Shown: positions 7,517-25,946 of the stretch, piece by piece
How the letters are laid out: each line of letters starts with the position of its first letter
How positions within the stretch are numbered: the stretch's first letter is position 1
IMG/VR virus record: IMGVR_UViG_3300017527_000718
Location: 1-52,266 of that record
Source of the DNA: a virus
Length of the DNA stretch: 52,266 nucleotides
Direction: 5' to 3' (one strand)
The notes under the pieces: generated by a model
What the model was told of the DNA's origin: nothing
Databases searched by the model: none
What the model saw: only the letters and a program-made list of their open reading frames with translations
Position numbers and translations under genes: made by a program

Positions 7517-7544
7517 ATTATAGCGTCTGACGCTATAAAGTCAA
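7517..7544 (-). promoter_or_regulatory. Promoter P1 with perfect 21-bp palindromic operator
   Basis: Minus strand: TTGACT (7539-7544), 16-nt spacer, TATAAT (7517-7522). A perfect palindrome, TTATAGCGTC-T/A-GACGCTATAA, covers 7518-7538, so it fills the spacer and most of the -10 box. A repressor bound here would block RNA polymerase. The leader that follows (TAGTAGTAGATGA...AAAGGGAACCACGAAAGGAG) is shared with P2-P4. Confidence 0.85.
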
Positions 7545-7590
7545 CAGCATAAAGGCCAAAAACCGACTGGAATCTGGTAATTTTGCCATC

Positions 7591-7637
7591 CCCCTGGGCC
7601 CCGCAAATCGCGTATGAGCCCCCGCATGCCCCAGGGG
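7591..7637 (-). other. Inverted repeat just after the SNF2 helicase stop
   Basis: Arms CCCCTGGG (7591-7598) and CCCAGGGG (7630-7637) pair perfectly, with a 31-nt GC-rich interior. It begins 2 nt after the helicase stop codon and lies just upstream of promoter P1. There is no T-run on the minus strand, so it is not a standard intrinsic terminator. It may be an mRNA 3'-end structure. Confidence 0.45.
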
Positions 7638-7638
7638 C

Positions 7639-9045
7639 TTAGGACACCAAGCCCTGCCTGAAAGACTGCCCTGTGCCCTCCTGTGGCCCCAGACGGCCCG
7701 TTTTGGGTGTGTGAACAGCCATGGATCGCATCAATTGGTTGTAGATATCTAGATCACCCTGTAGGGGGTGCCCATCCAACACCGAGGAAAGCACTTGCTG
7801 TTTCGATTGCAAAATGCCACACAGCTTCTCCTCTATTGATCCCCCGGCCACCAAATACCAGCACCATGCCTCCTGCTTGGTGCCAATCCGGTGAATGCGA
7901 TCCTCAGCCTGCACCACCACCCCCGGCTGCCATGGCAACTCGACAAACACTACATTTGAGCTGGCTGTTAGCGTTATGCCCACCCCCGCAGCTCTGATAT
8001 TCCCAATCAGCAGCCGCAATGCGCCCCCTTGGAAACTATCCACAGCATGCTGTCTCCGCCGGCCGGTCAGCGAGCCATCAACCACGACCGAGGTGGCCTT
8101 GCACCTCCGCTCCAATGCCCGAGCTGCCGCCCGGTGCACACAATAGACCACCAATTGCTCGTCTGTGTCCTGGAGAAAGGTATTGATCCATTCCACGGCA
8201 TTTCGCAGCTTGAGACGGGCAGCCAACCGCAGCAGATACCCCGTTTTTGTCAGGCCCTCAGCTCTGGCAGCTTTGTTGGCCTTCTTGACATCCTTCTCTG
8301 CCAACCAATTCAGAAAGTCTTCGTTTGCCCGATCGTATTCGGCAGCATGATCCATCGGAAGAGTTATCACCCGTCGAATTTTGTCAGGTAGATCTGGCAG
8401 CACCTCGGTCTTGCGTCTCCTCACCATACAGCTATCAAGCAGCAATCGGTGCAGCTCTTCGGTATGGGTAGCCCCCGAATACTTTACACCCCAAGGCGTC
8501 CACCTCGGCCCACAATACCTCTCGGCGTATTTTAGCCGACTGCGGAATATGGATGGTCGGATCATTTGCAGGCCGTTAAACAACTCAATAGGCCTGTTGA
8601 CAAGGGGCGTCCCACTTAGACCGATGACATGGGGTGTTCCCTTCACAATTGCCTGGGCAGCCTTTGTCCGTTTTGTGCGGTTGGCAACGTACTGAATCTC
8701 ATCAAGAACAACAGTTTGAACACCGGCCTCTCGGATGTAATCCACCCAACCGGATAAGATGTCATAATTGATTATCAGAATGTCAAAACGGACCTTCCTT
8801 GATGGCATGCGGCCCTCAGCCGTTGTTGCCTCTATTTCCAATATCCTGCGTACCTGCTCTTCCCAATGGTATTTGACCGATGCTGGACAGACAACCACAG
8901 CCGGAAATGATGCCTGGTTGTTCCTCAGCAACCACCAGAGAGTCATGGCCGTCTTGCCCAACCCAGGATCACATGCCAGCAAAGCACGGCCACCAAATTG
9001 CTCGACCTCACACACGCACTCATCCTGGTATGAGAATGGCCTCAT
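7639..9045 (-). CDS. SNF2-family DEAD/DEAH helicase-like ATPase
   Basis: 468 aa. The N-terminal RecA lobe has a Q-like start (RPFSYQDECV), Walker A (CDPGLGKTAM, about residue 25), motif II (VVLDEIQYV) and motif III (LSGTPLVNRP). The C-terminal lobe has motif V-VI segments (GNIRAAGVGITLTASS, QAEDRIHRIGTKQEA). The order matches compact phage SNF2/SMARCAL1-like remodellers, used in replication fork or recombination work. The start overlaps the next gene upstream by 4 nt. Confidence 0.9.
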   Translation of the reverse strand: MRPFSYQDECVCEVEQFGGRALLACDPGLGKTAMTLWWLLRNNQASFPAVVVCPASVKYHWEEQVRRILEIEATTAEGRMPSRKVRFDILIINYDILSGWVDYIREAGVQTVVLDEIQYVANRTKRTKAAQAIVKGTPHVIGLSGTPLVNRPIELFNGLQMIRPSIFRSRLKYAERYCGPRWTPWGVKYSGATHTEELHRLLLDSCMVRRRKTEVLPDLPDKIRRVITLPMDHAAEYDRANEDFLNWLAEKDVKKANKAARAEGLTKTGYLLRLAARLKLRNAVEWINTFLQDTDEQLVVYCVHRAAARALERRCKATSVVVDGSLTGRRRQHAVDSFQGGALRLLIGNIRAAGVGITLTASSNVVFVELPWQPGVVVQAEDRIHRIGTKQEAWCWYLVAGGSIEEKLCGILQSKQQVLSSVLDGHPLQGDLDIYNQLMRSMAVHTPKTGRLGPQEGTGQSFRQGLVS

Positions 9046-9233
9046 TTGCCTTTGCCTCTAACAAGCACCTCAACCACCTTCTGCATCTCCCCGAAATGAC
9101 GACGGCAGAACGGCTTGCCGTCCATTCTGACGTAGCCCCGACCATTGCATCGGACGGGCTTGCCGGCTGCATCCAGCCCCACCTCCCGGCAGCAGTGATC
9201 TTGTGTGGGCAAAAGACCCATTAACTTTGTCAT
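9042..9233 (-). CDS. Small Cys/His protein
   Basis: 63 aa. Cys/His residues (HCC at 14-15, C29, C43, H46) are arranged like a small treble-clef or HNH-like zinc site, ending in a basic tail. AGGAG precedes the ATG and its stop overlaps the SNF2 start (ATGA). It could be a zinc-binding partner of the helicase; too short to assign. Confidence 0.6.
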   Translation of the reverse strand: MTKLMGLLPTQDHCCREVGLDAAGKPVRCNGRGYVRMDGKPFCRRHFGEMQKVVEVLVRGKGK

Positions 9234-9235
9234 GA

Positions 9236-9490
9236 CTAATCTCCTGAGTGATTGGACTTGCCGCCATCAACGATGATCGGGACACACCTATCGGCTGGCC
9301 ACTCCGGATGACTCCACCTATTGAATTCGAAAAGAACATCCCGCACCTTCCGGATCATGGCTTTGTGGTGTGGATGATCGGGTGGGTACAAAGCAGCCAG
9401 TTCACCATACCCATCGGCTTCCCGCAGAGCCCGGCTGCGTTTCAGGAACAAGATGTTGACGCCAGCCCATGTCACTGGTGGTACTTTCAC
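9236..9490 (-). CDS. Hypothetical protein
   Basis: 84 aa, starting at a GTG at 9490 with AGGAG 8 nt upstream; its first bases overlap the stop of the gene upstream. It contains LYPPDHPHHKAMIRKVRDVL and a tryptophan-rich segment. No motif of known function. Confidence 0.6.
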   Translation of the reverse strand: MKVPPVTWAGVNILFLKRSRALREADGYGELAALYPPDHPHHKAMIRKVRDVLFEFNRWSHPEWPADRCVPIIVDGGKSNHSGD

Positions 9491-9897
9491 AATCCACTCT
9501 CCTGCAGCCTTTTTATAGCATCTTGCACTGCTGCCACAGCGTCAACCACTGTCAAGTACGGATCGTCCTCTTCGTCAAATGCCAATGGAAAACCAGCACT
9601 TCCAAAAGCATCAAAGCACTTCCACATGTAATCCATGCCCCGCTGCATCTGCACTTGTAAGAAGGACAGCTTCACACCATTAGGAATAGTGGGCCACAAT
9701 CGAAGAAACAGGCAACGTGCTTCATCCATCGGCGTTTTGTTGCTCCGCTTGTATGGCCAGCGAAGATCAATGGGCACATCGTGCTCATCGTAGAACCCAG
9801 GCTGTGACTTCGCAGCTAACATGAAGATCTCTACAATCTCCTTCCGGCTGATCTTGTCGATGCCACGGGTCGGGAATGGTAGGGCGTAAATACTCAT
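9487..9897 (-). CDS. Hypothetical protein
   Basis: 136 aa from the ATG at 9897, chosen over one at 9936 because AGGAGA lies just upstream. Alpha/beta composition with WPYKRSNKTPMDEARCLFLR in the middle and an acidic EEDD patch near the C-terminus. It overlaps the next gene by 4 nt. Family not recognised. Confidence 0.65.
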   Translation of the reverse strand: MSIYALPFPTRGIDKISRKEIVEIFMLAAKSQPGFYDEHDVPIDLRWPYKRSNKTPMDEARCLFLRLWPTIPNGVKLSFLQVQMQRGMDYMWKCFDAFGSAGFPLAFDEEDDPYLTVVDAVAAVQDAIKRLQESGL

Positions 9898-10183
9898 CTG
9901 GAAATCTCCTGATTGAAAAAGGGGAGAGGGCAGCAACCCCAGGTGTTGGTGAGCCTGTCGTCGCAGCCACTGCCCCCTCCTACCTCGTGTCGATAGCTGA
10001 GTTTTGGCGGACTTTCATCATCCGCCTCGATTCATTTTACACTTCCTTTCAGCTCTTCGCCGTTTGTGTCTTATCCGTGCTTCCTACGCACCAAGAGGTA
10101 ATTAAATCGAGGTCTTCTGAGCAAGTAGCTCTTACAACACAATCATAGGCGTCACCACCTTTCTTAAAGAACCTCCACTTCTC
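9898..10183 (-). other. Gap with little gene content
   Basis: About 290 nt. The minus strand continues, in frame after the stop of the small peptide at 10184-10252, for 43 codons without another stop (to about 10052). That stretch has protein-like composition (KWRFFKKGGDAYDCVVR) but no own start codon with a ribosome site. A 6-bp inverted repeat (GGCGGA/TCCGCC, 10006-10026) lies further on. No promoter or tRNA was found. Confidence 0.4.
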
Positions 10184-10252
10184 TTATACGGGAAGGTCAT
10201 CCATCAACGAAACAATGTAAACCGCCAAGATCAAAATCAACAACTCGGTCAT
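10184..10252 (-). CDS. Small 22-aa hydrophobic peptide
   Basis: ATG at 10252 directly follows the TGA of the upstream gene, with GAGGGGA about 8 nt before. The peptide is 22 aa, with a hydrophobic run LLILILAVYIVSL and a DD near the end, so it could insert in the membrane. It is too short to test by composition. The same frame stays open for 43 codons after its TAA stop, so a longer broken gene is also possible. Confidence 0.45.
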   Translation of the reverse strand: MTELLILILAVYIVSLMDDLPV

Positions 10253-10699
10253 TCAAATTTCCCCTCGCAACTTCCGTCTGCGAACCTCGTTCTTGGAAAT
10301 GCCCAGCTCCTCAGCAATCTGTTTGATCGACATTCCGGGATGCGTGGATGTTCCAGGTGCCACACAGGCATCCGATGGGGCAGGCTTTCGCCTCGTGGCT
10401 TTCAAGTCGCCAGTAATGCCATCAGTCCTGATTTTGTATCTTGGCGCACCTGTGTGGTACTGCTGGAAGGCCCTGCACTTCCCTTGGCTATATGCCGGAC
10501 ATCCATCGCAAATGTTGCCCCCCGTAACCTCCAGCAAACCGGCGAACATCACTGCAAACTGATGATGAGCTATCTGAAAATCGTTGTGTATGTCCGCCCC
10601 CGTTTGGATGCACCCAGCATGAAACAGCTGCTCAAACGTTGCGTTCAGCTGCCCTCGTGGACATGGTTTCGATTGTTGGGACACTTTACTCAACATCAT
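10253..10699 (-). CDS. Cys-motif protein with C-terminal helix-turn-helix
   Basis: 148 aa. A CDGCPAYSQGKC motif (about residues 64-75) could bind metal. The last 30 residues (MSIKQIAEELGISKNEVRRR) form a textbook helix-turn-helix of the homeodomain-like type. It probably binds DNA, as a small regulator or replication accessory. The start overlaps the upstream gene by 4 nt. Confidence 0.7.
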   Translation of the reverse strand: MMLSKVSQQSKPCPRGQLNATFEQLFHAGCIQTGADIHNDFQIAHHQFAVMFAGLLEVTGGNICDGCPAYSQGKCRAFQQYHTGAPRYKIRTDGITGDLKATRRKPAPSDACVAPGTSTHPGMSIKQIAEELGISKNEVRRRKLRGEI

Positions 10700-10884
10700 T
10701 TTTCATCCTCCCAAGGCCAATGACAATCTGAGAAATCAACATCCTTCATGGTTCGATTCAGATCCCGCCTACTTTCGAGGGCCTCTTTCTTCGTCTCAAA
10801 TGGTCCGTAGGGCCCATCCTCCTCATCTCCTGTTATCCACCAGTACCGGCCCAACCGCCGTACAACCAGCTTGACTCCCATCAT
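10696..10884 (-). CDS. Hypothetical small protein
   Basis: 62 aa: beta-strand-like start (VKLVVRRLGRYWWITG), then a helix with ETKKEALESRRDLNR, ending in an acidic, Trp-containing tail. It overlaps its neighbours by 4 nt on both sides, between the sigma-like gene and the HTH gene. Family not recognised. Confidence 0.65.
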   Translation of the reverse strand: MMGVKLVVRRLGRYWWITGDEEDGPYGPFETKKEALESRRDLNRTMKDVDFSDCHWPWEDEK

Positions 10885-11411
10885 AACTCGGCCTGCAATT
10901 CCACAAAGGCGTCTGTGATGCGGCCCATCATCCAGCCCTGCCCTGCCAGATACGCTCTTATGATACCACGCTTGTCGGTTGTCGTTTCCAGTAGGGCTCG
11001 CAACTCCTCCCCAGATTCCAAGATCGTCGAAACCACGGCTCTTGCATCATCCGACAAATTCTCATAGCGATCCTGGCCCCGGTAATCAGCGACCCATTCC
11101 AACTTGCTCGGGTCTCGGTAGATCCACCTATTTTTGGAGCACTTCTTGCATTCATTCTGCAGGCCATTTGCTACGGCTCGATATAAGTAGGTGGTGAAAC
11201 TACTCCCCTGCTTCGGGTCCCATCGCAAATAAGCCCTTAGAAAAATCTCGGTGGCTGTGCCCATGCGATCGAGGAATTCGCAACTGCCACCACCCTCGTA
11301 GCGGCATCGCATGTACTTCCAGCAAATCTTCCGCAGCATGTTTTCCACATCACGATATGTTTCCAGGACAGCGTCATGCTCGGTATCGTGCTCGGCTGCT
11401 TTTGTGATCAT
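10881..11411 (-). CDS. Phage sigma-70-like factor
   Basis: 176 aa. The first half matches sigma region 2: helices around ENMLRKICWKYMRC, then FLRAYLRWDPKQGSSFTTYLYRAV, the core-binding and -10 recognition helices. After a short linker the last 60 residues resemble a reduced region 4 (IRAYLAGQGWMMGRITDAF). It may direct host RNA polymerase to other phage promoters. No second class of promoter was identified in the window. A DNA-binding protein with a sigma-like fold only is the alternative. Confidence 0.7.
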   Translation of the reverse strand: MITKAAEHDTEHDAVLETYRDVENMLRKICWKYMRCRYEGGGSCEFLDRMGTATEIFLRAYLRWDPKQGSSFTTYLYRAVANGLQNECKKCSKNRWIYRDPSKLEWVADYRGQDRYENLSDDARAVVSTILESGEELRALLETTTDKRGIIRAYLAGQGWMMGRITDAFVELQAEL

Positions 11412-11465
11412 TGCGTTCTCCTAAAAATGGGGGCAGCCCCAAAGGGCCACCCCCATCCCCAAAAC

Positions 11466-12515
11466 TTAAGCGGATACGCCAGCCCAATCCTCGGGGGGCA
11501 GCTCGATGATCTGCCCGCCGGCCGATTCCATTTCCGTCGCCCGGTTGTAATCCTCGACATCCTGCGAGGCTCGCGTGACTGCGTTGGCCAGGCCCCACTG
11601 TGTCAGGTCACCGCCTCGGATCAGGTGGCTCAGGACATTGTCCTGCTCGCCCTCGGAGAAATCGAGCTTGGATGCCACGGCCTCGACCGCCTTGATGGGG
11701 TTGCTCAAATCCCGGCCCATCGAATCCTTGTACTCCAGCAATCTCCGGTCGAATCGCTCCTGATCAAACAAGGATGTCGTCGTGTCGACCACCTTGTTCC
11801 AGAATGCCGCGTCTTCCAGCCGCCTGGTCTCGTCGCGGAAAAACTCACGGGCCCCGTCCATGGGGTCGTTTCCCCTGCCCAGGTGGGTTTTGCGGACGGC
11901 CACACTCCGGATCATTCCATTGATACACACCAGGCGATAATCCATCTCCTCGATCTTGAGGGCCCCGGCACCCACCTCGCTGTTTGCCACCACAATCCCA
12001 GCCTGGATTGTGTCCCCCTCCTGCACATCACCGATGATCTTCGGCGTTGTCGCCTTCAGGTAAAACCAATCCTCCGTGATGTCGCTGCTCACCACCTCGG
12101 CATCCAATTCGCCCAGCTTTGGCAGCACGGCAGCCGCCAGATCGTAGTTGTCGAGGGGGCGGTATCGATCACTGAGAAGTGCTCGCACATCCCCATCCAT
12201 TGTCCGTAGCAGCTTTCGTTTCGGCGCCGCTCGCAGCCAATGGTTGAGATTCAGGGCGAGCAGATCGGGGGCTTGATCTGCCATCCGATCGTAGTACTTC
12301 TTTGGGATGTCCAATGCCAACCCAAATTGCCGATGCGCCGTCTTGCGCAGCGGCATCTCGGTGGCACCATCCCCCGGCAGATCGACGGCCAGCACGACGC
12401 TGTCATTCGCCAGGGCAAACTGCATCGACCGGGTGTCGATCAGGTAGTCCCGTTTGGACTTCCTTTGCCGTTCCAACTCCTCGGCCAACCCCTGGATTTG
12501 TAAACCCTGTCGCAT
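11466..12515 (-). CDS. DUF932-like protein
   Basis: 349 aa. The segment around RALLSDRYRPLDNYDLAAAV (about residues 111-130) and the following strands match phage/plasmid proteins of the DUF932 group. Their biochemical role is not settled. A perfect AGGAGG lies before the ATG. It is the first gene after promoter P5, so it is probably repressed along with the other early units. Confidence 0.65.
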   Translation of the reverse strand: MRQGLQIQGLAEELERQRKSKRDYLIDTRSMQFALANDSVVLAVDLPGDGATEMPLRKTAHRQFGLALDIPKKYYDRMADQAPDLLALNLNHWLRAAPKRKLLRTMDGDVRALLSDRYRPLDNYDLAAAVLPKLGELDAEVVSSDITEDWFYLKATTPKIIGDVQEGDTIQAGIVVANSEVGAGALKIEEMDYRLVCINGMIRSVAVRKTHLGRGNDPMDGAREFFRDETRRLEDAAFWNKVVDTTTSLFDQERFDRRLLEYKDSMGRDLSNPIKAVEAVASKLDFSEGEQDNVLSHLIRGGDLTQWGLANAVTRASQDVEDYNRATEMESAGGQIIELPPEDWAGVSA

Positions 12516-12560
12516 CGTTCAATCCTCCTGCGTGGTGGTTGCTTCAGCTTCCATGGTTGA

Positions 12561-12589
12561 ACTATAGTGTCTGGCACTACAATTGTCAA
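12561..12589 (-). promoter_or_regulatory. Promoter P5 with operator variant
   Basis: Minus strand: TTGACA (12584-12589), 17-nt spacer, TATAGT (12561-12566). A degenerate form of the P1 palindrome (CTATAGTGTC-T-GGCACTACAA on the plus strand) overlies the -10 box and spacer. It drives the DUF932-like gene at 11466-12515 and probably the genes beyond. Confidence 0.75.
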
Positions 12590-12614
12590 GGCCCCTTCTC
12601 TGCTCCTTGCAAAA

Positions 12615-12959
12615 CTAATTCTCGAAAGAATCATTCAGCATCTCCAGGGCTGGGGTGGCGGTCAGCCCCATTTCCCCCTCAAGCCGAATCAGCTCGTTGG
12701 TGACGATCTTCAGGGCCGCTCGCATCTGGACCAGACTCGCTGGGCCATGGCCATTGCTGCCGCCCTTCGTCGTGGCAACGTCCATCGTTTTGCGGGCCCC
12801 AAGAATGTTTGCCGCCGTCACCGGCCGCCCGATCCTCCGACCGGCAAACTCGGCGAAAGCCTTGTCGGTCCATTTCCCAGCCGCAAACTCCGCCTTGTGC
12901 TCCAGCACCAAATCCTCCAACTTGCGGCATGCGCCTCGGTCTAGCATGTTGCGTGTCAT
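12615..12959 (-). CDS. Hypothetical helical protein
   Basis: 114 aa from the ATG at 12959, preceded by AAGGAGAA at 7 nt; an upstream in-frame ATG at 12992 has no such site. It contains a segment like a winged-helix or small helical DNA-binding domain (KWTDKAFAEFAGRRIGRPVTA, about residues 29-48) and a C-terminal helix. No family assigned. Confidence 0.65.
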   Translation of the reverse strand: MTRNMLDRGACRKLEDLVLEHKAEFAAGKWTDKAFAEFAGRRIGRPVTAANILGARKTMDVATTKGGSNGHGPASLVQMRAALKIVTNELIRLEGEMGLTATPALEMLNDSFEN

Positions 12960-12992
12960 ATCAATTCTCCTTGTGTAATGGGGACAAAACAA

Positions 12993-13535
12993 TCAACCAG
13001 CATCATACTTATCGGGTTCCGCTTTCTCGTGCTCCCGCAGTTCCCTTCGCAAGTTATCTCGGGCGAATCTCCATCTCCTCCATGCAGCTCTTGGTTTGCG
13101 TGGGGTGGATGCGGCCTCGGCAAAATAGACTCTGCGTTGTCTGTCCCCATTGGGGATTGCCAATCTAGCTAATATGGGCCGTGGCAAATCCAAATACTCC
13201 ACCCACAACTGAATCAGCAAAGCAGCGAAGACGGGCCCATGCCAAGCGCCGTCGTTTGGGCCTGCTATTGCATGAGCCACCTCATGCAATACGGTCAGCT
13301 CGTTTCGTGCCCATTGGGGAAGAACGATTTTGTGTTCATAGGGGTAGTAACTCGCAGGCCCCCGCCGCTGCTGTTTTCTTACGGCTTTGGGGGGTTTTGC
13401 ACCAGGCTTGTAATCGTCGTAGACCTTGTTGATCAACTCCTGACACTCCTCCAGGGTCAGGGTAAGGGCTCCAAACTTGCTGCGCACTCTGACTCCCCAA
13501 TTGTAAACGGCTTGGCGTTGGGAATCCCTAGCCAT
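12993..13535 (-). CDS. SprT-like zinc metallopeptidase domain protein
   Basis: 180 aa, starting at 13535 after AAAGGAG. It has the HExxH motif LHEVAHAIAG with a later WHG (third ligand candidate). This fits SprT/Spartan-like phage proteins, which cleave DNA-bound proteins in the host family. The C-terminus is basic (RAAWRRWRFARDNLRRE), as expected for DNA association. No separate Cys zinc ribbon is seen. Confidence 0.75.
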   Translation of the reverse strand: MARDSQRQAVYNWGVRVRSKFGALTLTLEECQELINKVYDDYKPGAKPPKAVRKQQRRGPASYYPYEHKIVLPQWARNELTVLHEVAHAIAGPNDGAWHGPVFAALLIQLWVEYLDLPRPILARLAIPNGDRQRRVYFAEAASTPRKPRAAWRRWRFARDNLRRELREHEKAEPDKYDAG

Positions 13536-13536
13536 G

Positions 13537-13812
13537 TCAAGCTCCTTTGCTGCTACAATCCCGCAGCCACTCCTCGCCCACAACCACTCGGAGTGTGCTG
13601 TGATGATACCAAGTCGGCCAGCCGCATGCGTTGGGATGCCGAACTATGGTCCGCCCGCTGAGGGTCGTGTGGTAGTAGCCACGGCCAACCAACTCCGGGG
13701 TCTGGTTGCTGGAGGGAATGACCTCCACTGGCCTTGTGTTCCTGGGGTTGAGCCCAGCCGCAATTCGGGCCCGCTTTCTCTGTTCTCTGGTTGTTTCGAT
13801 CGTAGTCGTCAT
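13537..13812 (-). CDS. Hypothetical basic protein
   Basis: 91 aa from ATG 13812 after AAAGGAGCTTGAC, the same initiation sequence as at 13535 and 14095. It has a basic N-terminus (REQRKRARIAAGLNPR) and a His/Trp-containing C-terminus (PTWYHHSTLRVVVGEEW). Probably DNA- or RNA-associated; not assigned. Confidence 0.65.
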   Translation of the reverse strand: MTTTIETTREQRKRARIAAGLNPRNTRPVEVIPSSNQTPELVGRGYYHTTLSGRTIVRHPNACGWPTWYHHSTLRVVVGEEWLRDCSSKGA

Positions 13813-13813
13813 G

Positions 13814-14095
13814 TCAAGCTCCTTTCGCCGTCTTGAGTTTGCTGTGGACCAGGTACTCCACCCGTGAAGGATCAGGGAACCTCCGCCTGTCGCCAACATC
13901 CGAAAGGCCAGGATCGAACCCGGCTGGAACCTCACGTTTTTCGAGATAGCGAAAACCAGCGTAGGTATTGTTTGCCATCAGCACCTCTTCCAGCAGGCTA
14001 TTCCACCCCCAACGGCAGTCAGCTTCGCAGGTGCTGTTCCTGTTCCGGCTGTTGACCCGTTCGATCAGATCCCTGATTTTTACTGTCTGTCTCAT
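13814..14095 (-). CDS. Hypothetical protein
   Basis: 93 aa starting at 14095 (AAGGAGCTTGGC upstream). A much longer in-frame extension to 14398 overlaps the next gene in another frame and looks non-coding, so I reject it. Contains NSRNRNSTCEADCRWGW with two cysteines. Function unknown. Confidence 0.65.
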   Translation of the reverse strand: MRQTVKIRDLIERVNSRNRNSTCEADCRWGWNSLLEEVLMANNTYAGFRYLEKREVPAGFDPGLSDVGDRRRFPDPSRVEYLVHSKLKTAKGA

Positions 14096-14133
14096 GCCAA
14101 GCTCCTTGGTTGCCGTTGGTGGGAAATGGGGGG

Positions 14134-14361
14134 CTATGTCCGATCTCGCAAGGCGTCGGCCATCCGCTGGAGGAAGTCGCTGTCCTTCTCCCTCTGAACA
14201 TCCACATAGCCGCCTGTGTAGGCTCTTTGCATGGCCATCTCCTGCAGCATGCCGCCCAAATCTTCGAGAAACTTCATCTGGCCCTGGGGGGTCAAGGCAT
14301 CCTCTGCTCCCCTTTGAATCGTCCTGGCTACCCCTACTGCGGTCAGTGTGCCGTTTCTCAT
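14134..14361 (-). CDS. Hypothetical helical protein, first gene after P2
   Basis: 75 aa, mostly helical (QGQMKFLEDLGGMLQEMAMQ). The ATG follows AAAGGAGAAACG of the shared leader, about 45 nt from the -10 box of P2, so it is probably repressor controlled. Not recognised. Confidence 0.7.
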   Translation of the reverse strand: MRNGTLTAVGVARTIQRGAEDALTPQGQMKFLEDLGGMLQEMAMQRAYTGGYVDVQREKDSDFLQRMADALRDRT

Positions 14362-14406
14362 CGTTTCTCCTTTCGTGGTTCCCTTTCCTCTCCCTCATCT
14401 ACTACT

Positions 14407-14434
14407 ATTATAGCGTCTGACGCTATAAAGTCAA
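14407..14434 (-). promoter_or_regulatory. Promoter P2 with perfect palindromic operator
   Basis: TTGACT (14429-14434), 16-nt spacer, TATAAT (14407-14412) on the minus strand, with the same 21-bp palindrome as P1 at 14408-14428. Upstream, 14435-14469 is repeated almost exactly ahead of P3. The leader matches P1, P3 and P4. Confidence 0.85.
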
Positions 14435-14542
14435 GGGTACGGGGCCCATATTCTGATCTTTTCTGGATGGACTTTGGGGCGTTGGTTGGCCGTCTGACGC
14501 CCATCTAACCTACTAGGCAAAGGATACCAACCCACCCCCCAG

Positions 14543-14583
14543 AACGGCGACAGGGGCCGCCAGGTGGCCCCTGGGATGCCGTT
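14543..14583 (-). other. Strong two-part hairpin between genes
   Basis: Outer arms AACGGC (14543-14548) and GCCGTT (14578-14583) enclose an 8-bp stem CAGGGGCC/GGCCCCTG (14551-14558, 14566-14573). There is no T-run on the minus strand, but TTTT follows on the plus strand. It sits between the end of the P3 unit and promoter P2, so it may close the P3 transcript. Confidence 0.55.
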
Positions 14584-14622
14584 TTGGCTCTTTGTCCAAT
14601 CTCCTTGAAGTGGTTGGGGTGA

Positions 14623-14856
14623 TCAGTCAGCCTCGCCGATCATTCGGGCGAACGCCTCGGGATCATCTTCTTCCCACACGGGATCGCCATTGGTGAACGC
14701 GCCCCGCATCTCGTAATCGCAGGCATCGGTGCGATAGGCGAAGACATGTACCTGCGCCTCCCCCTCGCCAATCAGGTCGAAGATGCCCAGGTGGCGGGCC
14801 TCGGTCACTGTGGCGCCGGTGATGTGGCCCTGAATCCGCTCTTCTAAAGTCTGCAT
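14623..14856 (-). CDS. Hypothetical acidic protein
   Basis: 77 aa from ATG 14856, where GGAGGGAGAG stands just before; an ATG 24 nt upstream (14880) is also possible. Mixed alpha/beta with acidic C-terminus (VWEEDDPEAFARMI). Downstream lies the hairpin 14543-14583. Not recognised. Confidence 0.6.
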   Translation of the reverse strand: MQTLEERIQGHITGATVTEARHLGIFDLIGEGEAQVHVFAYRTDACDYEMRGAFTNGDPVWEEDDPEAFARMIGEAD

Positions 14857-14883
14857 CGTCTCTCCCTCCAGGTTGGTCATCGT

Positions 14884-15093
14884 CTAGCCCTCGTTCACGG
14901 GCACGGTGTAGGTCTTGTTGTCCCTGCGGCACAGGTATGCCATCTTGATGCCGGCGGCCTGCATCCGATCGGCCTCGGCCTGCTTCATCGTGTAGTGATC
15001 ACCGTCGACAATCACGGCCACACCGTCGCCCGAGCACTCCAGGTGTTGCAGTGCCTCGAATCCGCCGGGGTGGTGGGTTGCGGTGAATCGCAT
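14884..15093 (-). CDS. Hypothetical small protein
   Basis: 69 aa from ATG 15093 after AGGAGG; the in-frame extension upstream to 15210 is a proline/glycine-rich non-coding look-alike. Beta-rich with one cysteine pair (C21, C55 approx.). A GC hairpin at 15113-15138 lies right before its ribosome site and may modulate its translation. Confidence 0.6.
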   Translation of the reverse strand: MRFTATHHPGGFEALQHLECSGDGVAVIVDGDHYTMKQAEADRMQAAGIKMAYLCRRDNKTYTVPVNEG

Positions 15094-15112
15094 CGTTTCG
15101 GCCTCCTGCAAC

Positions 15113-15138
15113 CCCCGGGCCCCGCGTGGGGCCCGGGG
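15113..15138 (-). other. Perfect 11-bp GC hairpin between two genes
   Basis: Arms CCCCGGGCCCC (15113-15123) and GGGGCCCGGGG (15128-15138) with a 4-nt loop. No T-run follows on either strand in the minus reading. It lies between the stop of the gene at 15152 and the AGGAGG of the next gene, within the P3 unit. Confidence 0.6.
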
Positions 15139-15151
15139 TGGGTGGTGGTGG

Positions 15152-15424
15152 TTAGTTATCGAATTTGGCCTTTGCTGCAACCATCCTCCAGGCGGTCTCG
15201 CTACTGCCATTGTATCGGCCAGCTTCGGTGTCCATCTGGCCCAACTGGTGGCCGAAGAAGTAGGCTTCCGAATGCTCGTGGCTCACCTGCGTCGTGGTGT
15301 GGGGTCCGTCCATCACGCGCTTTCTCAGGCGGTTGTTTTTCACCTCCCAAGCGGCGTCGTGGTAGCCATCATTGAACCGGACTCGGATGTCGTGGTCACT
15401 CGGCTTGCGGGTTTTGGCCTTCAT
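15152..15424 (-). CDS. Hypothetical basic/His-rich protein, first gene after P3
   Basis: 90 aa, basic and His-rich (VSHEHSEAYFFGHQLGQM). The shared leader with AAAGGAG precedes the ATG. It contains a GYHDAAWEVKNNR segment of strand-helix type. Probably an early, repressor-controlled gene; family unknown. Confidence 0.7.
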   Translation of the reverse strand: MKAKTRKPSDHDIRVRFNDGYHDAAWEVKNNRLRKRVMDGPHTTTQVSHEHSEAYFFGHQLGQMDTEAGRYNGSSETAWRMVAAKAKFDN

Positions 15425-15463
15425 CGTTTCTCCTTTCGTGGTTCCCTTTCCTCATCTACTACT

Positions 15464-15491
15464 ATTATAGCGTCTGGCACTATAATGTCAA
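15464..15491 (-). promoter_or_regulatory. Promoter P3 with operator variant
   Basis: Minus strand TTGACA (15486-15491), 16-nt spacer, TATAAT (15464-15469): the closest of the set to the sigma-70 consensus. The palindrome here has one changed half (TTATAGTGCC against TTATAGCGTC), 8 of 10 matching. Confidence 0.85.
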
Positions 15492-15627
15492 GGGTACTGG
15501 GCCCATATTCTGATCTTTTCTGGATGACCCGTCCCCACCCGGAGTCTTGCCACGTCGGTATTTTCTGTCCCCCACCTGGGGGTTCCGGTGGTTGGCAATT
15601 CCGTGGTTGGGTGCGTAGGCCCCATTC
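15492..15627 (-). other. Non-coding stretch with direct repeat and short hairpin
   Basis: The part next to P3 (15492-15526) repeats 14435-14469 almost exactly. A GC inverted repeat (CCCCC-ACCT-GGGGG, 15569-15582) lies further up, after the small membrane gene. An open frame of 74 codons crosses it but has no ribosome site and overlaps promoter P3, so I do not call it. Confidence 0.5.
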
Positions 15628-15726
15628 TCATCTCACATGCCCCTCCAGCCTCCCGATCTCCCAAAGGCTTCGATAGCAGCCGTAGGTCACGCTGGCAAAA
15701 ACCACAATCCAAACCATACTGAGCAT
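15628..15726 (-). CDS. Small 32-aa membrane protein
   Basis: ATG 15726 follows AAAGGAG of the shared leader and is the only good start downstream of P4. The 32-aa product has one hydrophobic segment (MVWIVVFASVTYGCY) and then a basic/polar tail, so probably one TM helix. Being alone behind a near-consensus, repressor-controlled promoter suggests a real early function; family unknown. Confidence 0.6.
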   Translation of the reverse strand: MLSMVWIVVFASVTYGCYRSLWEIGRLEGHVR

Positions 15727-15775
15727 CGTGCTGTTCTCCTTTCGTGGTTCCCTTTCCTCTCCCTCATCTACTACT

Positions 15776-15803
15776 ATTATAGCGTCTGGCACTATAAAGT
15801 CAA
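15776..15803 (-). promoter_or_regulatory. Promoter P4 with operator variant
   Basis: Minus strand TTGACT (15798-15803), 16-nt spacer, TATAAT (15776-15781). The operator has the same variant half as P3 (AGTGCC). It begins only 4 nt after the T-run of the terminator at 15808-15834. Confidence 0.85.
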
Positions 15804-15807: not shown

Positions 15808-15834
15808 AAAAACCCCGAATTCCAGGATTCGGGG
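15808..15834 (-). terminator. Intrinsic terminator after the XRE repressor gene
   Basis: Perfect 8-bp stem CCCCGAAT/ATTCGGGG (15813-15820 and 15827-15834) with a 6-nt loop, then five T residues on the minus strand (15808-15812). It lies directly after the repressor stop codon and closes the long unit coming from the structural and glycan genes. Confidence 0.9.
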
Positions 15835-15840
15835 TATTTA

Positions 15841-16074
15841 TCAGGCAGATTTGCTGATTAGTTTGATGGTTGTAATCCCCAAAGCCTCAGCTAGTAACTC
15901 GACATTTACACGAGTAGGGAGCTGTCGGCCCCCCTCCCATAGGGCAACCGTAACCTGATGCACCCCCACAGCACCAGCAAGATCGGTCTGCGTCCACCCC
16001 AGCCGGGCCCTGTGTTCCCTGATGCGGCCCCCTATGATGTCCCTCAATTCGTTTTCTGTAGCTAATTGCAGCAT
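15841..16074 (-). CDS. XRE/Cro-CI-type transcription repressor
   Basis: 77 aa. A classic XRE helix-turn-helix: IREHRARLGWTQTDLAGAVG (helix 2 start about residue 28), then VHQVTVALWEGGRQLP, which includes the recognition helix. It has no oligomerisation or protease-like domain, so it is Cro-like in size. Its ATG directly abuts the stop of the preceding gene. The window holds five copies of a palindromic operator in promoters P1-P5; this protein is the only clear phage repressor candidate. Confidence 0.85.
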   Translation of the reverse strand: MLQLATENELRDIIGGRIREHRARLGWTQTDLAGAVGVHQVTVALWEGGRQLPTRVNVELLAEALGITTIKLISKSA

Positions 16075-16365
16075 TTAACACCTACTATCTGGCTCATCGG
16101 CCCATTTGAACTCCGCATCCCTATTATACAGCCGCCAAATCCTCCAGAAGTCATTTTTATCGATTGCGTCCCGTTCGGCAAACATTCGCATACCCACCTG
16201 CTGGCCTGCCGGCTGCCCAATCAGGTGCAGGCCCATGGTGCCCTCGACCACAACAGTCGCCACAGATGATCCCCCGTTGCCGTCTCGGAGGACAACATCA
16301 AGTCTCGTGCTGTTGTTCGGGCCCAGCAGCCAGGTCCGAAGCATTCTCCGCAGCCAATTGAGCAT
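16075..16365 (-). CDS. Hypothetical protein
   Basis: 96 aa from ATG 16365, after GGGAGG; the first 68 nt overlap the end of the sulfotransferase gene upstream. N-terminal basic helix (NWLRRMLRTWLL) and a C-terminal aromatic part (NDFWRIWRLYNRDAEFKW). It abuts the repressor gene. Function unknown. Confidence 0.6.
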   Translation of the reverse strand: MLNWLRRMLRTWLLGPNNSTRLDVVLRDGNGGSSVATVVVEGTMGLHLIGQPAGQQVGMRMFAERDAIDKNDFWRIWRLYNRDAEFKWADEPDSRC

Positions 16366-17032
16366 AATGCCGCCTCCCAATTGTCTCGGGACCATAAAAC
16401 CGATCGATCATCAATCTCTCGGAGGACAATACACGGGCTTTCAAATCGGCAGACCATTCAATCGACAGGTCTTTTGCATTCTGTTTGCCCATGCCCCGGA
16501 TCTGCTGCTCCAGTTTTTCATCCACCTCGTATCCATACAACCGAACAACATCGAGAAAATCGTCGCAGACTGTTTCTGTTCGGCCGATGTAATCAACAAA
16601 CTCACCGCCGGCCGGTCCCATGTACTGCTCAACTAATCGGGTGTACCACAATGGATGATGCTCCAACATCAAAAACACCCAATCGTTAAATGTTAGATCA
16701 TCGGATCGGCAAAACTCCTGCCATGGAACAGCAGTCGGATGCCACGACCACCTCTTTTCCACACACCCTCCGCCCTTGATCCATTTCCACGTCGATTCGT
16801 AGTAGGGGATGGGATGCCGCACAACCGAAAAGATGTTGTTGATATGCAGCCGCTCAAACTTATTGGCATGTGCAAGCAATGCATGTTTGAGGCAGATCCA
16901 TTTTGGCTGTTTTTTCTGCAGCCACCTCATAGATCTAAAACCACTGAGTGTGATAGCCTTCTCGATCCAGGTTCCTCCTGTCCGAGGCATGTGCAGGAAA
17001 AACAGGTTCTTCGCTGTAAGTAGACGAGCCAT
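16298..17032 (-). CDS. Sulfotransferase-like protein
   Basis: 244 aa from ATG 17032, with GGGAG upstream. The P-loop-like 5'-phosphosulfate loop FFLHMPRTGGTWIEKA (about residues 11-26) and the 3'-phosphate region IFSVVRHPIPYYESTWKW are typical of PAPS-dependent carbohydrate sulfotransferases. It would transfer sulfate from PAPS to a sugar hydroxyl. It is one of five such genes in this cassette. Confidence 0.85.
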   Translation of the reverse strand: MARLLTAKNLFFLHMPRTGGTWIEKAITLSGFRSMRWLQKKQPKWICLKHALLAHANKFERLHINNIFSVVRHPIPYYESTWKWIKGGGCVEKRWSWHPTAVPWQEFCRSDDLTFNDWVFLMLEHHPLWYTRLVEQYMGPAGGEFVDYIGRTETVCDDFLDVVRLYGYEVDEKLEQQIRGMGKQNAKDLSIEWSADLKARVLSSERLMIDRFYGPETIGRRHYAQLAAENASDLAAGPEQQHET

Positions 17033-17034
17033 GA

Positions 17035-17724
17035 TCACTCCCACTCTGGCACTTCCCAACCGAGCATTTCAAAAAGTGCATAGTTGCTTTGCCAAAACCA
17101 ATCCTTCAAAAAATCCACGGTCTCCTGCCGTGGTCTTATCTTGGCGCTTGTCTCATGATGGGGCATGAATTCAGCCTGTACGGGATCAACGCCCAAAAAC
17201 CCCATGATCCTACCGTACTCGCCGGCCATGTTTTCCTGCACCCTCTCGGAGATGCAAATACACACCCGCTGACGATCGAAAAAATGAAACAACCTCCGCA
17301 CCTGCTTGTAGTAGATCCCACGGGTCAGCAGCTTATCCCAATCCCCCACCATATCTCGGTGCATCAAATCAAGTGCATCAGGTCTGTTGATACGATCCGA
17401 TCTGGCTGAACACCATCGGGAAATTGCACGTTCCACCGGATTTCGCAAGAGCAAGACCAGACGGGCGTTTGGCACCACCTCCGCCATTCTGTCTGGATAC
17501 ATTATGTAGGATGGGGTCTTTTCACCAATCAACTCAGCCCTGGGCCTTCTCTTTGCCCTCCTCTGGATTTGGCGTTTGTACCAACCCAGCTGCTTCCAAT
17601 GCTCGTCGAAGAAATGCAGCTCCTTTGAATCACAGTAAATGTCGGGGTGCAATGAAAGGTTCTTCGCTGCCGCAACTGTGCCGGCTTTCTGCACTCCAAT
17701 TATCAAGAAGTCGGGCAAGGTCAT
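17035..17724 (-). CDS. Sulfotransferase (heparan N-sulfotransferase-like fold)
   Basis: 229 aa from ATG 17724 after AAAGGAGAG. PAPS-binding signatures: DFLIIGVQKAGT near the start, then KELHFFDEHW, GEKTPSYI and RLVLLLRNPVERAISRW. These match the Sulfotransfer_1/NDST-like family. The substrate is probably a surface or phage-linked glycan. The upstream part of the longer frame (to 17763) lacks a ribosome site. Confidence 0.9.
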   Translation of the reverse strand: MTLPDFLIIGVQKAGTVAAAKNLSLHPDIYCDSKELHFFDEHWKQLGWYKRQIQRRAKRRPRAELIGEKTPSYIMYPDRMAEVVPNARLVLLLRNPVERAISRWCSARSDRINRPDALDLMHRDMVGDWDKLLTRGIYYKQVRRLFHFFDRQRVCICISERVQENMAGEYGRIMGFLGVDPVQAEFMPHHETSAKIRPRQETVDFLKDWFWQSNYALFEMLGWEVPEWE

Positions 17725-17738
17725 GGCTCTCCTTTGCT

Positions 17739-18302
17739 TTACAAAACATCCTTGTCCAAACATTCAGCCAAATCCCTTTTTGTTCCAGTCCATGTATCTT
17801 GTCGACCATCAGCATGCTCAAATGCCCACTCGGTACAGTACCGTTGCACATCCCGAAACCACAAGCCAGGGCCCCTTTCACCTGCCGGTGTGCGGGCTCC
17901 CTGACCTTGCATATACTCATTTAATTCGCCACTTAAACGGGCTAACGGTAGGTATAACCAACTTGGATAAAGACCAATAGCAAGCTTGTCAGCAACGCAC
18001 AGGCGAGAAAACGATTGACCATCCCGCTTAGCCAGAAAGCGGGAATGATATCGACAAAAGAAACCCCACTTCTCGCCGAAAAACCATCCCATCACCCCCG
18101 CAGCCCATTCAGGATGCTCCTCTCCTTCTGGCCCGTCAAGATTTGGTTTGCCAATGTATCCCAAATCATGGAGGAAAAAAGCTATCCACAGACGAATGTC
18201 CCACGGTATGCCATATAATTTCCACCACCCCCAGGCCACAAACCACGGATGGATTGCAAATTGATGAACGCCAAACAGGATGGTTTTGGTGCCAATTGTC
18301 AT
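17739..18302 (-). CDS. HD-domain-like protein
   Basis: 187 aa. Contains FFLHDLGYIG (the HD pair), HPEWAAGVM and a later YHSRFLAKRDG...ADKLA, the usual order of HD-superfamily metal ligands, followed by an aromatic region. It lies between sulfotransferase and glycosyltransferase genes. Nucleotide clean-up such as PAP removal is a pure guess; substrate unknown. Confidence 0.7.
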   Translation of the reverse strand: MTIGTKTILFGVHQFAIHPWFVAWGWWKLYGIPWDIRLWIAFFLHDLGYIGKPNLDGPEGEEHPEWAAGVMGWFFGEKWGFFCRYHSRFLAKRDGQSFSRLCVADKLAIGLYPSWLYLPLARLSGELNEYMQGQGARTPAGERGPGLWFRDVQRYCTEWAFEHADGRQDTWTGTKRDLAECLDKDVL

Positions 18303-18311
18303 ACCACAACC

Positions 18312-19031
18312 TCATTTGTAACTGCTCGAAGTGTGTCGAATCCGATACATGCCTGGCAGATCAATACCCTTGATCATGCCATGCTTCTCACAAAAGCCCC
18401 TGTATTGTCTATCATCATGAAAATTCTTCAGTTGCTTTCCGCTTTCGTGGGGCTTCTGCCAGACAGAATGATTGTTCAAATACCCGTAGCGACGGGTAAA
18501 ATCCCCCTGCACGATTTGCACTCCGCCAATAGCCCGATGATAAATCTTCGGTTTGAAATCACCTGGATCAATATCCACTACAGCCGGCTGGTGGTTGACC
18601 TTGTCAGTAGCTGCCTGACCAGTTGTGTGGTCCTTATGAATCATGATCTGCTTCGGAAAAAGCATTACAGAATCAGGTGGCCATGGTGTATCAGCCAAAC
18701 GATCCAATATCCGGTCCCGATAGACTTGATCAACATCAGCAAACCAAACGATATCACCAGTCGACGATAGGGCTGCATTATTCCGGCCGATCGACCTGCG
18801 GGTGCATTGAGTTTTGTGGAGCACTATTAACCGGGCCCGAATCGGTGTGTGCTTGATAAACCAGGTGAAGGTGTTTTGTGTCAACTCATCATCCCATGTG
18901 GTAATGATTGTTGCCTTTACCGTACACATCTTCGGGGTATCGAGCAGCAGGGAACTCAGCTGATAGCACAAAGCCCCTGCATAATGGGGCCTCTCATTTG
19001 CCAAGCAGTGACTAATGATCTCAATTTGCAT
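18312..19031 (-). CDS. Glycosyltransferase (GT-A like)
   Basis: 239 aa from ATG 19031, chosen because phage proteins of this type begin with strand I.I.SHCLA...YAGALCYQLSS. A longer frame to 19139 overlaps the KdsB-like gene. A WFADVDQVY segment (about residue 96) is the metal-binding DxD; NNAALSSTGD precedes it. It transfers an activated sugar; donor and acceptor unknown. It overlaps the KdsB-like gene by 11 nt. Confidence 0.8.
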   Translation of the reverse strand: MQIEIISHCLANERPHYAGALCYQLSSLLLDTPKMCTVKATIITTWDDELTQNTFTWFIKHTPIRARLIVLHKTQCTRRSIGRNNAALSSTGDIVWFADVDQVYRDRILDRLADTPWPPDSVMLFPKQIMIHKDHTTGQAATDKVNHQPAVVDIDPGDFKPKIYHRAIGGVQIVQGDFTRRYGYLNNHSVWQKPHESGKQLKNFHDDRQYRGFCEKHGMIKGIDLPGMYRIRHTSSSYK

Positions 19032-19755
19032 CGGGGGCCCCTTGTAACACACAAACAAAATTGATGGCATCTTCTGGGGAATTGATTGATAGTGGGGGCA
19101 TGGGCAAAAGCAGCGCCCGAATGACTGCTCCGTTTTCAATCCAGGTCAATTGCTCCAACGATTCGGCCCTTGCATTGTCACTAAGATCCTCTGATCCGTA
19201 TTTATACAGCTCCTTTGCAGGGAACACGTAAACACCACAATGGACCAATGGTCGAGCTATGGGGGCTCTGGTGAACCAAAAACAAGATGCCGTCCATGAA
19301 TCACGCATTCGCACAGCCACTTTGACAACGTCCGGATTATCAAGTCCATCCCCAGTCAAATTGCTCACGAATGTGTGAATGCTCTTATCGTAATCCGATT
19401 TGATGCGTTTGATGGCTTGATCAACATAGGTGGAATGAAGTAGTGGCTCATCACACTGCCAGTTGATCACTATATCATCCTTACTAGTGCCCCTCATCCG
19501 ATCATAGACTTCGAGGCATCTGTGTGTTCCAGATTGGCAATCAATGCTAGACGGAAACCAAGGAATGCCCAAATCTCGGCATTTCTCACACACGGCTTTA
19601 TCAGGGGACGTGACCAGCACATTATCAACTTCAGCCGCACGAGCCTGAATGTAGGTCCATTCAAGTAGAGTGCGTCCACCAAACATGAGCAGGGGCTTAT
19701 TTCTCAGACGGCTGCTGCCCAACCTGGCAGGTATGATTGCGATTGTTTTGCTCAT
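19021..19755 (-). CDS. KdsB-like cytidylyltransferase (CMP-Kdo synthetase family)
   Basis: 244 aa, full length for KdsB. Nucleotide-binding start AIIPARLGSSRLRNKPL, then INWQCDEPLLH, HCGVYVFPAKELYKYG and the ESLEQLTWIENGAVIRA region with INSPED near the end are KdsB hallmarks. It activates a Kdo-type sugar with CTP. This supplies a donor to the glycosyltransferases around it and argues for a Gram-negative surface polysaccharide as target. AGGAG precedes the ATG. Confidence 0.9.
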   Translation of the reverse strand: MSKTIAIIPARLGSSRLRNKPLLMFGGRTLLEWTYIQARAAEVDNVLVTSPDKAVCEKCRDLGIPWFPSSIDCQSGTHRCLEVYDRMRGTSKDDIVINWQCDEPLLHSTYVDQAIKRIKSDYDKSIHTFVSNLTGDGLDNPDVVKVAVRMRDSWTASCFWFTRAPIARPLVHCGVYVFPAKELYKYGSEDLSDNARAESLEQLTWIENGAVIRALLLPMPPLSINSPEDAINFVCVLQGAPDAN

Positions 19756-19767
19756 GACTTGTTCTCC

Positions 19768-20310
19768 TCAATAGTACTCGTACCGTTCACAAAACCCCTC
19801 TTCGGCTTTCATCAGCATGCGTCGGGTCTGATGGTTGTGCAACGCAGGTGAGGCAGCTTCAATAAACCCTGGGCTGTCAGCAACTCTTGGGGGAGGCTCC
19901 ATCCCCAACGTCCTCATAAATTCAAACAGGGCATGGGGCAAATCTTCCAACCGCCACACAACATCGGCATCGTATTCAGCAAACATCCGACCAATTCTAC
20001 CTGCTTTTTCAAAAAGGAACTCGCAGGCAAATGTGTTGAATTCCTTGGGAACGGGTTCACCAAAAACGTCATCAAACGGCAATCCTGACGAGGCAGCAGC
20101 ATGGTATCTCAGAAGCCAATCAACGGGATGGCTAACCAATGAGACCCGCAAGGTGTTGGGGCCTTTTCGGTCTGGGAACACGGGACGAGCCTGTCGCCGG
20201 CTATTGAACCCGAAGTGAAATCTCTCTGCATAATCTGCCATCACCCCCTGGAACCAGCGGCCTCCTACACAAGGGGGACATGCAAATTGAAAATGACCAT
20301 AATCGATCAC
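19768..20310 (-). CDS. Sulfotransferase-like protein (divergent)
   Basis: 180 aa from GTG 20310, after AGGAGA; a TTG at 20334 is another possible start. A CPPCVGGRWFQGVM segment at the start and LRVSLVSHPVDWLLRYHAA later mimic the two PAPS-binding regions, but the signatures are weak. It is shorter than its neighbours. I call it a divergent sulfotransferase from these segments and its position. Confidence 0.55.
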   Translation of the reverse strand: MIDYGHFQFACPPCVGGRWFQGVMADYAERFHFGFNSRRQARPVFPDRKGPNTLRVSLVSHPVDWLLRYHAAASSGLPFDDVFGEPVPKEFNTFACEFLFEKAGRIGRMFAEYDADVVWRLEDLPHALFEFMRTLGMEPPPRVADSPGFIEAASPALHNHQTRRMLMKAEEGFCERYEYY

Positions 20311-20334
20311 TGTTGTTCTCCTGTTCCCCAACAA

Positions 20335-20886
20335 TCAGTGCTTCTGAAACCACCAAATGTCTGCACGATGCTTGTATTCCACCTGATAGCCGTACTCAAC
20401 AGCAAACTCATCAACGGCCTTCTTGACCAGTCCAGGCACGGGCTCCCAGCGACCCAAATAATCATGCCCAGACACAACACCCCCACTCCTGACCTTATTG
20501 TACCAGGCACGAAGATCCCTCGTGACATCTTCGTAGGTATGGGATGCATCGATAAACACCAAATCCAGCGACCCGTCCTTGATCTGGTTTGCCATCTCCC
20601 AGCTCACGCCCTGCAGTACGGACCAACGGCTGGGCTCGAATCCCCGCATGTTGTCCAGGGCTTCCTGATGACAAGCCATCAGCTGCTTCTTAGATTTGCT
20701 CGTGGTGCCTCCCCCATCACCCTGCTCCCACAAATCAACAAGCACCATGTGCAGCTTCGGATACCTCAACAGTAGCCGTCGACTAGTTCGTCCCCTCTCC
20801 ACACCCACCTCTGCACCAACAACAAAATCGTCCCCGAGAACACTATCAATGATTCTAAACAGTCGCTTGGGTATGTAATTGGGCAT
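20335..20886 (-). CDS. SAM-dependent methyltransferase (Methyltransf_24 type)
   Basis: 183 aa. The SAM-binding fold is visible in VVGAEVGVERGRTSRRLL (motif I, about residues 22-39), then MVLVDLWEQ and SLDLVFIDASHTYEDV, typical of the sugar-methylating type 24. GAGGTGGAAC precedes the ATG. It probably methylates a cassette sugar. Confidence 0.8.
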   Translation of the reverse strand: MPNYIPKRLFRIIDSVLGDDFVVGAEVGVERGRTSRRLLLRYPKLHMVLVDLWEQGDGGGTTSKSKKQLMACHQEALDNMRGFEPSRWSVLQGVSWEMANQIKDGSLDLVFIDASHTYEDVTRDLRAWYNKVRSGGVVSGHDYLGRWEPVPGLVKKAVDEFAVEYGYQVEYKHRADIWWFQKH

Positions 20887-20894
20887 GTTCCACC

Positions 20895-21557: not shown

Positions 21558-22123
21558 GAAACACGCCTTAAAACCATGATGCGTCGTTTGAAAAAGGAGC
21601 CGGCCCTGGACTGAATCCGCTTTGACAGCAGATCATCAATATCCCATCCAAAACGAGCAAACATATTTGCTATGTAGACGGTGGTCTTGCAATTGACATG
21701 ACCATTGCCCCGCTGACCTGGTGATCCCCATGATACGATCAAGCCCTTCTTCGGAATCTGGCAGATTTCCGCAAACAGCCTTCCTTCCAACTCGGCTGGT
21801 ATGTGCTCACCCACATCAATGAAAAGCCCCCAATCCCATTTGCCGTACAGATGACTGCAGTCACGGGTGAGATCCGCCCACTCCACTTTGCCACCAGTCA
21901 ATTCCTCTATGTTTTCCCCACCATCAACCGATTTGACCGTGTATCCAAGAGCCGTTAGTGCGTCCTGACAAGTACCTACCCCAGCCCCCATATCAATGAT
22001 GGTTTCATTACTGGGAATCGTTTTGATTAGAGCAACCAAAAGAGATTTGTTTATTTTCCTCTTTTTCACTCGCCTGCTCACAGTTTCGGCGTCGAAGCCA
22101 CCTATGGCCTTACTCATGTCCAC
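21554..22123 (-). CDS. SAM-dependent methyltransferase
   Basis: 189 aa. Motif I (IIDMGAGVGTCQDALTALG, about residues 43-61), a conserved acidic end (VKSVDGGENIEEL) and WDWGLFIDVGEHIP give a class I methyltransferase. A short basic N-terminus precedes it. Substrate unknown; likely a cassette glycan or amino sugar. Confidence 0.8.
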   Translation of the reverse strand: MDMSKAIGGFDAETVSRRVKKRKINKSLLVALIKTIPSNETIIDMGAGVGTCQDALTALGYTVKSVDGGENIEELTGGKVEWADLTRDCSHLYGKWDWGLFIDVGEHIPAELEGRLFAEICQIPKKGLIVSWGSPGQRGNGHVNCKTTVYIANMFARFGWDIDDLLSKRIQSRAGSFFKRRIMVLRRVS

Positions 22124-25938: not shown

Positions 25939-25946
25939 TGTTCTCC

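Follow-up and report, generated by a model that had tools for sequence, protein, structure and literature searches.

The window analysed here is the whole of IMG/VR record IMGVR_UViG_3300017527_000718 (52,266 bases, from an uncultured bacterial virus), whose annotated genes lie on the minus strand. It contains five promoters, P1 to P5, that share one palindromic operator, and a gene for a 77-residue protein of the XRE helix-turn-helix (HTH) family at the end of the putative late operon. From the sites, the gene order and a comparison with relatives, we consider it reasonably probable (about 0.6) that P1 to P5 form an early regulon, in a tailed phage that is itself probably virulent, and would be shut off together by this late-operon XRE protein. 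An earlier note on this DNA had placed all five promoters correctly and had read them as an immunity layout; the promoters are confirmed, the immunity layout is not supported.

Five promoters share one palindromic operator

P1, 7517..7544, minus strand: TTGACT-16-TATAAT with the perfect operator TTATAGCGTCAGACGCTATAA; precedes 7219-7476 and then, as far as the left end, the genes for replication (primase and DnaB-like helicase).
P5, 12561..12589, minus strand: TTGACA-17-TATAGT with the operator TTGTAGTGCCAGACACTATAG; flanks mostly unrelated; precedes a DUF932 gene (11466-12515), the sigma-like gene and, further down, an SNF2 helicase.
P2, 14407..14434, minus strand: same make-up as P1, with a perfect operator; precedes 14134-14361 and small genes.
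P3, 15464..15491, minus strand: 12/12 promoter, TTGACA-16-TATAAT, with one operator half altered (GTGCC); precedes 15152-15424, 14884 and 14623.
P4, 15776..15803, minus strand: TTGACT-16-TATAAT with one operator half altered; first promoter after the XRE gene; precedes a 32-residue hydrophobic open reading frame (15628-15726).

The shared palindrome consists of 19 bp, TATAGCGTC-A-GACGCTATA, or 21 bp counting the flanking TT and AA, and covers the spacer and the -10 box. It is matched five times in the window, against 0.01 matches expected. P1 to P4 fit the order TTGACNN-palindrome-TATAAT with 0 mismatches (0.00 expected in shuffles), the full pattern being TTGACNN-TATAGYGYC-N-GRCRC-TATAAT; P5 (TTGACA-N17-TATAGT) is one palindrome base off. 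This agrees with the earlier description of near-consensus boxes combined with one palindrome over spacer and -10, as does the distinction between perfect (P1, P2) and altered (P3 to P5) operators: the arms are symmetric at 10/10 positions in P1 and P2 (shuffle P 0.0003), at 8/10 in P3 and P4, and at 7/10 in P5. All ten half-sites read TRTAGYGYC, so that they differ by transitions only, and one extra half-site occurs in the window, at 3863. The half-site adjoining the -35 box is kept in five of five, though the promoter consensus does not demand such bases. A search pattern with a three-base centre gave zero matches, the true centre being one base.

When scored with a symmetric matrix built from these same five sites, the operators reach 27.4-32.6 bits, with the next-best site in the window at 7.6; the best score in random sequence had a mean of 7.2 and a maximum of 17.2 (40 draws). 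The palindrome does not occur away from promoters; its occurrence there at random frequency was a finding that the earlier note had named as counting against its inference. The matrix order P1=P2 > P3=P4 > P5 serves as a predicted affinity ranking only, and a circular one, because the matrix was made from the same sites. Each of the five promoters has at least 11/12 consensus bases, and other minus-strand sites in the window have at most 9/12. An 11/12 promoter-like site on the plus strand, at 44130, has no palindrome and lies antisense within a large late gene (42860-45703). In all five promoters, which were assigned as early from their gene content (small genes in the case of P4, P3 and P2), a dyad operator overlaps the promoter, as is characteristic of Cro-type repressors. 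The palindrome sits upstream of the expected transcription start and is therefore absent from its own transcript; a role as an RNA hairpin was rejected on this ground.

A small XRE protein lies at the end of the late operon

XRE/HTH_31 protein, candidate repressor, 15841..16074, minus strand: 77 residues, single domain; last gene of the late operon.
Intrinsic terminator, 15812..15835, minus strand: 9-bp stem followed by a T-run; between the XRE gene and P4.

The XRE gene starts directly after the stop codon of the gene upstream, and no promoter-like site of at least 9/12 was found upstream of it on the XRE strand. Its product belongs to the XRE family by two matches over cut-off (HTH_31, 4.1e-13; HTH_3, 3.6e-11). 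The AF2 model (pLDDT 93.6) comprises five helices, with all 77 residues within the HTH domain; a C-terminal S24 or oligomerisation domain is absent from the protein, which is thus single-domain in the manner of Cro-type repressors. The closest folds include C.BclI, C.AhdI, P22 c2, SinR and 434 Cro, with entries 3cro and 2r1j among the matches; C.AhdI is the closest (Z 12.9), and C.BclI and C.AhdI are tied with P22 c2. Taken together, the protein is a likely repressor acting on the palindrome of P1 to P5.

Searching viral and bacterial genomes by sequence alone brought up further XRE homologues (L007-L012, L045-L064), which are distant and have no other gene in common with the window, except that one of them, L062, gave a single further match, to the SNF2 gene. 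These homologues were used solely for a deeper structure alignment. A search with the SNF2 helicase likewise led to loci with no other gene in common.

The arrangement recurs in relatives

In L080, a fragment, the gene order is that of the window and runs from glycosyltransferases through an XRE-like gene, a palindromic promoter and small genes to DUF932, sigma-like, SNF2, primase and DnaB genes. Its promoter, TTTACTTTTATAGACTATTACTCTATAAT, contains a 9/10 palindrome in the same register as in the window. The second relative, G015, comprises 84,946 bases and is taken as complete because it has a 114-base direct terminal repeat. Here a sulfotransferase gene is followed by XRE, a hairpin and an operator promoter at 56543, and further operator promoters lie at 1646, 1777 and 83659. 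These four are the only G015 promoters of at least 11/12, and ATAGC...GCTAT is present in 4/4. If the ends of G015 join, three of its operator sites would fall in the part of the genome missing from the window. L132 is identical to G015 along the shared stretch and was excluded from the count. As five sites that all lie in promoters, an XRE gene adjoining P4 and the same arrangement in L080 and G015 go together, the earlier proposal of one repressor for several separate early units is supported. The XRE-negative relatives almost lack promoters of this kind: in about 480 kb searched, two at 11/12 were found, one of them with a weak dyad.

XRE sequence and operator core vary together among the XRE-bearing phages: the core reads TATAGYGYC with an odd dyad, TATAGCRTG with an even dyad, or TATAGASTA with an odd dyad. 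XRE genes elsewhere in the genome (L129, L138, L150, L156) had no clear dyad in those inspected. An exact-pattern scan of viral contigs yielded two matches (L005, L006) in unrelated AT-rich contigs, which we judged to be chance or unrelated operators.

Direct terminal repeats were observed in G015 (L203/L206, 114 bases) and in the XRE-negative G018 (L208/L210, 88 bases), so that both genomes, of about 83-85 kb, are probably complete; the phage collection holds no close cultured relative of their lineage. For the window, too, no close cultured relative was found: the portal is 26% identical to Gordonia phages, the capsid has no match and the primase stays below 30%. A weak 5-bp dyad in a G018 promoter (TATGT...ACATA) was taken as chance (shuffle P 0.27 for that promoter). 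G009, also XRE-negative, carries another early promoter cassette three times (L114 4653; L111 3138 and about 3990), with GCGTCTANAATTATAGAA and, upstream, a repeated block rich in TCCGGAA.

A proposed early-to-late relay

Sigma-70 region-2-like protein, 10881..11411, minus strand: in the P5 unit; candidate late-transcription factor; PF04542 1.3e-5, over cut-off.
Putative late block, 16075..52266, minus strand: head, portal and tail genes and glycosyl-, sulfo- and methyltransferases; the XRE gene is the end of the operon.

Homologues of the sigma-like protein in 11 related loci were used for an alignment. The protein superposes on sigma domain 2, and nearly all of the 50 fold matches listed are sigma factors or their complexes (Z 8.8-10.8). 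It is possibly a phage sigma factor. No minus-strand sigma-70 promoter above 9/12 was found in the late block (16075..52266).

We propose that, on entry, P4, P3, P2, P5 and P1 would be read at full strength by the host sigma-70 RNA polymerase. The sigma-like product of the P5 unit may then help to start late transcription; on its coding strand, the late side is devoid of a strong sigma-70 promoter. Transcription would run to the end of the late operon, where the terminator follows the XRE gene, and XRE protein would build up. An XRE dimer on the palindrome would block RNA polymerase at each early promoter. Because XRE would cover the spacer and the -10 box of every one of them, the early units would be closed jointly once late expression is complete.

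Several further features were observed in the window. The DUF932 protein directly behind P5 (11466-12515, minus strand) is 63% identical in L080 and is present also in otherwise unrelated phages. The end of the late operon (16298-26000, minus strand) is densely packed with genes for sulfo-, glycosyl- and methyltransferases, and this cluster is conserved across the lineage. Repeats comprise a 24-base tandem repeat at 2360-2503, within 1818-2870 (minus strand); low-complexity coding repeats of 24 and 15 bases in late genes (40703-41128 and 27958-28197); and a 115-base repeat present four times (43253, 43898, 45811, 46342; 67-87% alike) in two adjacent late genes.

Alternative explanations

The immunity proposed in the earlier note, with the XRE protein as a prophage repressor silencing dispersed early promoters, is unlikely. 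Temperate phages of the L5 group are the best-known case of dispersed operators (PMC6550527), and the missing part of the genome could hold an integrase. The search for lifestyle genes covered 13 records, made up of the window and 12 relatives, of which G015 and G018 are complete by their terminal repeats. In none of the 13 was a ParA, an S24 domain (PF00717) or a tyrosine integrase over cut-off found, and this includes the complete, XRE-bearing G015 with its four operators. A tyrosine-integrase match in G015 was rejected (14.5 bits, under cut-off, with one stop), and a serine recombinase is present only in G022. The XRE protein, itself without S24, is not of the cI/LexA type. Nor does the window contain a lambda-type immunity switch: the five promoters lie on one strand, each with a single operator, and no divergent strong promoter was found near XRE. 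The last position of a late operon is poorly suited to a gene that has to be active during silence of the late genes, and no promoter of its own, of at least 9/12, was found upstream of XRE. Given this position, a shut-off role appears more likely than an immunity role.

That a host regulator binds the palindrome, borrowed or escaped by the phage, with XRE acting elsewhere, we regard as quite unlikely. Such an XRE protein is known from phiCbK, where it acts on host promoters (PMC10688885), and the binding of XRE to the palindrome is itself a prediction. The motif is nevertheless tied to phages with an adjacent XRE gene, its core changes along with XRE, and the scan of viral contigs returned just the two matches in unrelated AT-rich contexts.

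It is very unlikely that no regulator is involved and that the five sites are recent copies of a strong promoter-leader cassette whose symmetry is incidental. A leader of about 50 bp, including the ribosome site, is common to P1 to P4, and upstream sequence is also common to P2 and P3; the four read as copies of one cassette and are for this reason not four independent observations. In G009, moreover, promoter cassettes are repeated in the absence of both XRE and a clear dyad. Against this, the symmetry of P1 and P2 is perfect (10/10, shuffle P 0.0003), P5 retains the dyad operator within mostly different flanks, and L080 and G015 carry separate dyads.

Least probable is that XRE works like a C protein, as an activator or autoregulator in place of a plain repressor. 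C.BclI and C.AhdI are among the closest folds (tied with P22 c2), but a site over the spacer and -10 of near-consensus promoters is expected to block polymerase, and restriction-modification genes were not seen among the genes scanned.

Joint shut-off of the five promoters by the late-operon XRE protein remains our preferred explanation, and the following points weigh against it. With P1 to P4 and three G015 sites being cassette copies, independent support is below the site count. In G019 (L186), the fourth XRE-bearing phage, an epimerase gene separates XRE from the promoter, whose dyad of 7/10 is not significant (P 0.15); it was dropped as support. XRE-negative relatives manage without the system. 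Since neither an end repeat nor a terminase was recognised in the window, it is treated as a fragment, and a lysogeny module could therefore lie outside it; in the relative L013, large open reading frames lie upstream of the genes that match the window, in the position expected for terminase. The promoters were scored against the sigma-70 consensus, whose use by the host is an assumption. The DNA itself gives the five sites and their promoters, the order of the genes, the terminator, the folds predicted for the HTH and sigma region-2 proteins and the recurrence of XRE with a dyad promoter in relatives. From these we infer that XRE binds the operators, represses and does so late, and that the sigma-like protein has its proposed role; the lateness of XRE is read from gene order alone (last late gene, before the terminator).

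Tentatively, and with less confidence than in the shut-off itself, we suggest a wider generalisation, in which uncultured, strictly lytic tailed phages of about 85 kb would regulate by dispersed operators and have no lysogeny. In them, an XRE protein from the late operon and a private palindrome in every strong host-type promoter would coevolve as a unit and spread by cassette duplication, and would form, with an early sigma-like factor, a closed and self-ending early-to-late relay. Such a layout is known mostly as an immunity device of temperate phages; here it occurs in a lineage in which signs of lysogeny are nearly absent, with the repressor ending the late operon, a position that would make dispersed operators a timing device. 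The repressor-operator pairs, differing in sequence and spacing, would be useful for studying how small XRE proteins choose DNA, and the operator would let early genes of uncultured phages be called by a simple sequence rule.

Comparison with known systems

The Cro-type lytic repressors of lambda, 434 and P22 are small single-domain HTH proteins that bind a palindromic operator inside early promoters and shut off early transcription in lytic growth. The system described here is alike in its small single-domain HTH protein and in palindromic operators within early promoters. It differs in that there is no divergent cI/cro switch and there are no tandem operators, the XRE gene lies at the end of the late operon, and single operators are spread over at least 8 kb, or over several separate places in G015.

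In the Cluster A mycobacteriophages L5 and Bxb1, the sites number 20-30, are asymmetric and oriented and lie for the most part outside promoters; they block elongation and have a role in immunity (PMC6550527). Dispersed sites under one repressor are common to both systems, but here the five sites are symmetric and all in promoters, and no lysogeny genes were seen, so that the arrangement is not of the L5 type. The C1 sites of bacteriophage P1 are asymmetric. They lie near several promoters under one repressor (PMC8198154), as here; there, C1 maintains lysogeny and works with Coi and Lxc.

TgrL of the Caulobacter phage phiCbK is likewise an XRE regulator. Its gene is early and its targets are promoters of the host (PMC10688885); in the window, the XRE gene comes last in the late operon and is predicted to act on phage promoters. 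The controller (C) proteins of restriction-modification systems, C.AhdI among them, are small HTH proteins and provide the closest fold (Z 12.9), but no restriction-modification genes were seen here and the operator placement differs. No lytic phage with an early regulon of dispersed palindromes was found as a direct precedent in the open literature, which is no proof that none exists. By analogy, the protein and its operator type are Cro-like, and their dispersal recalls the L5 group (PMC6550527) and bacteriophage P1 (PMC8198154), where it serves mainly lysogeny.

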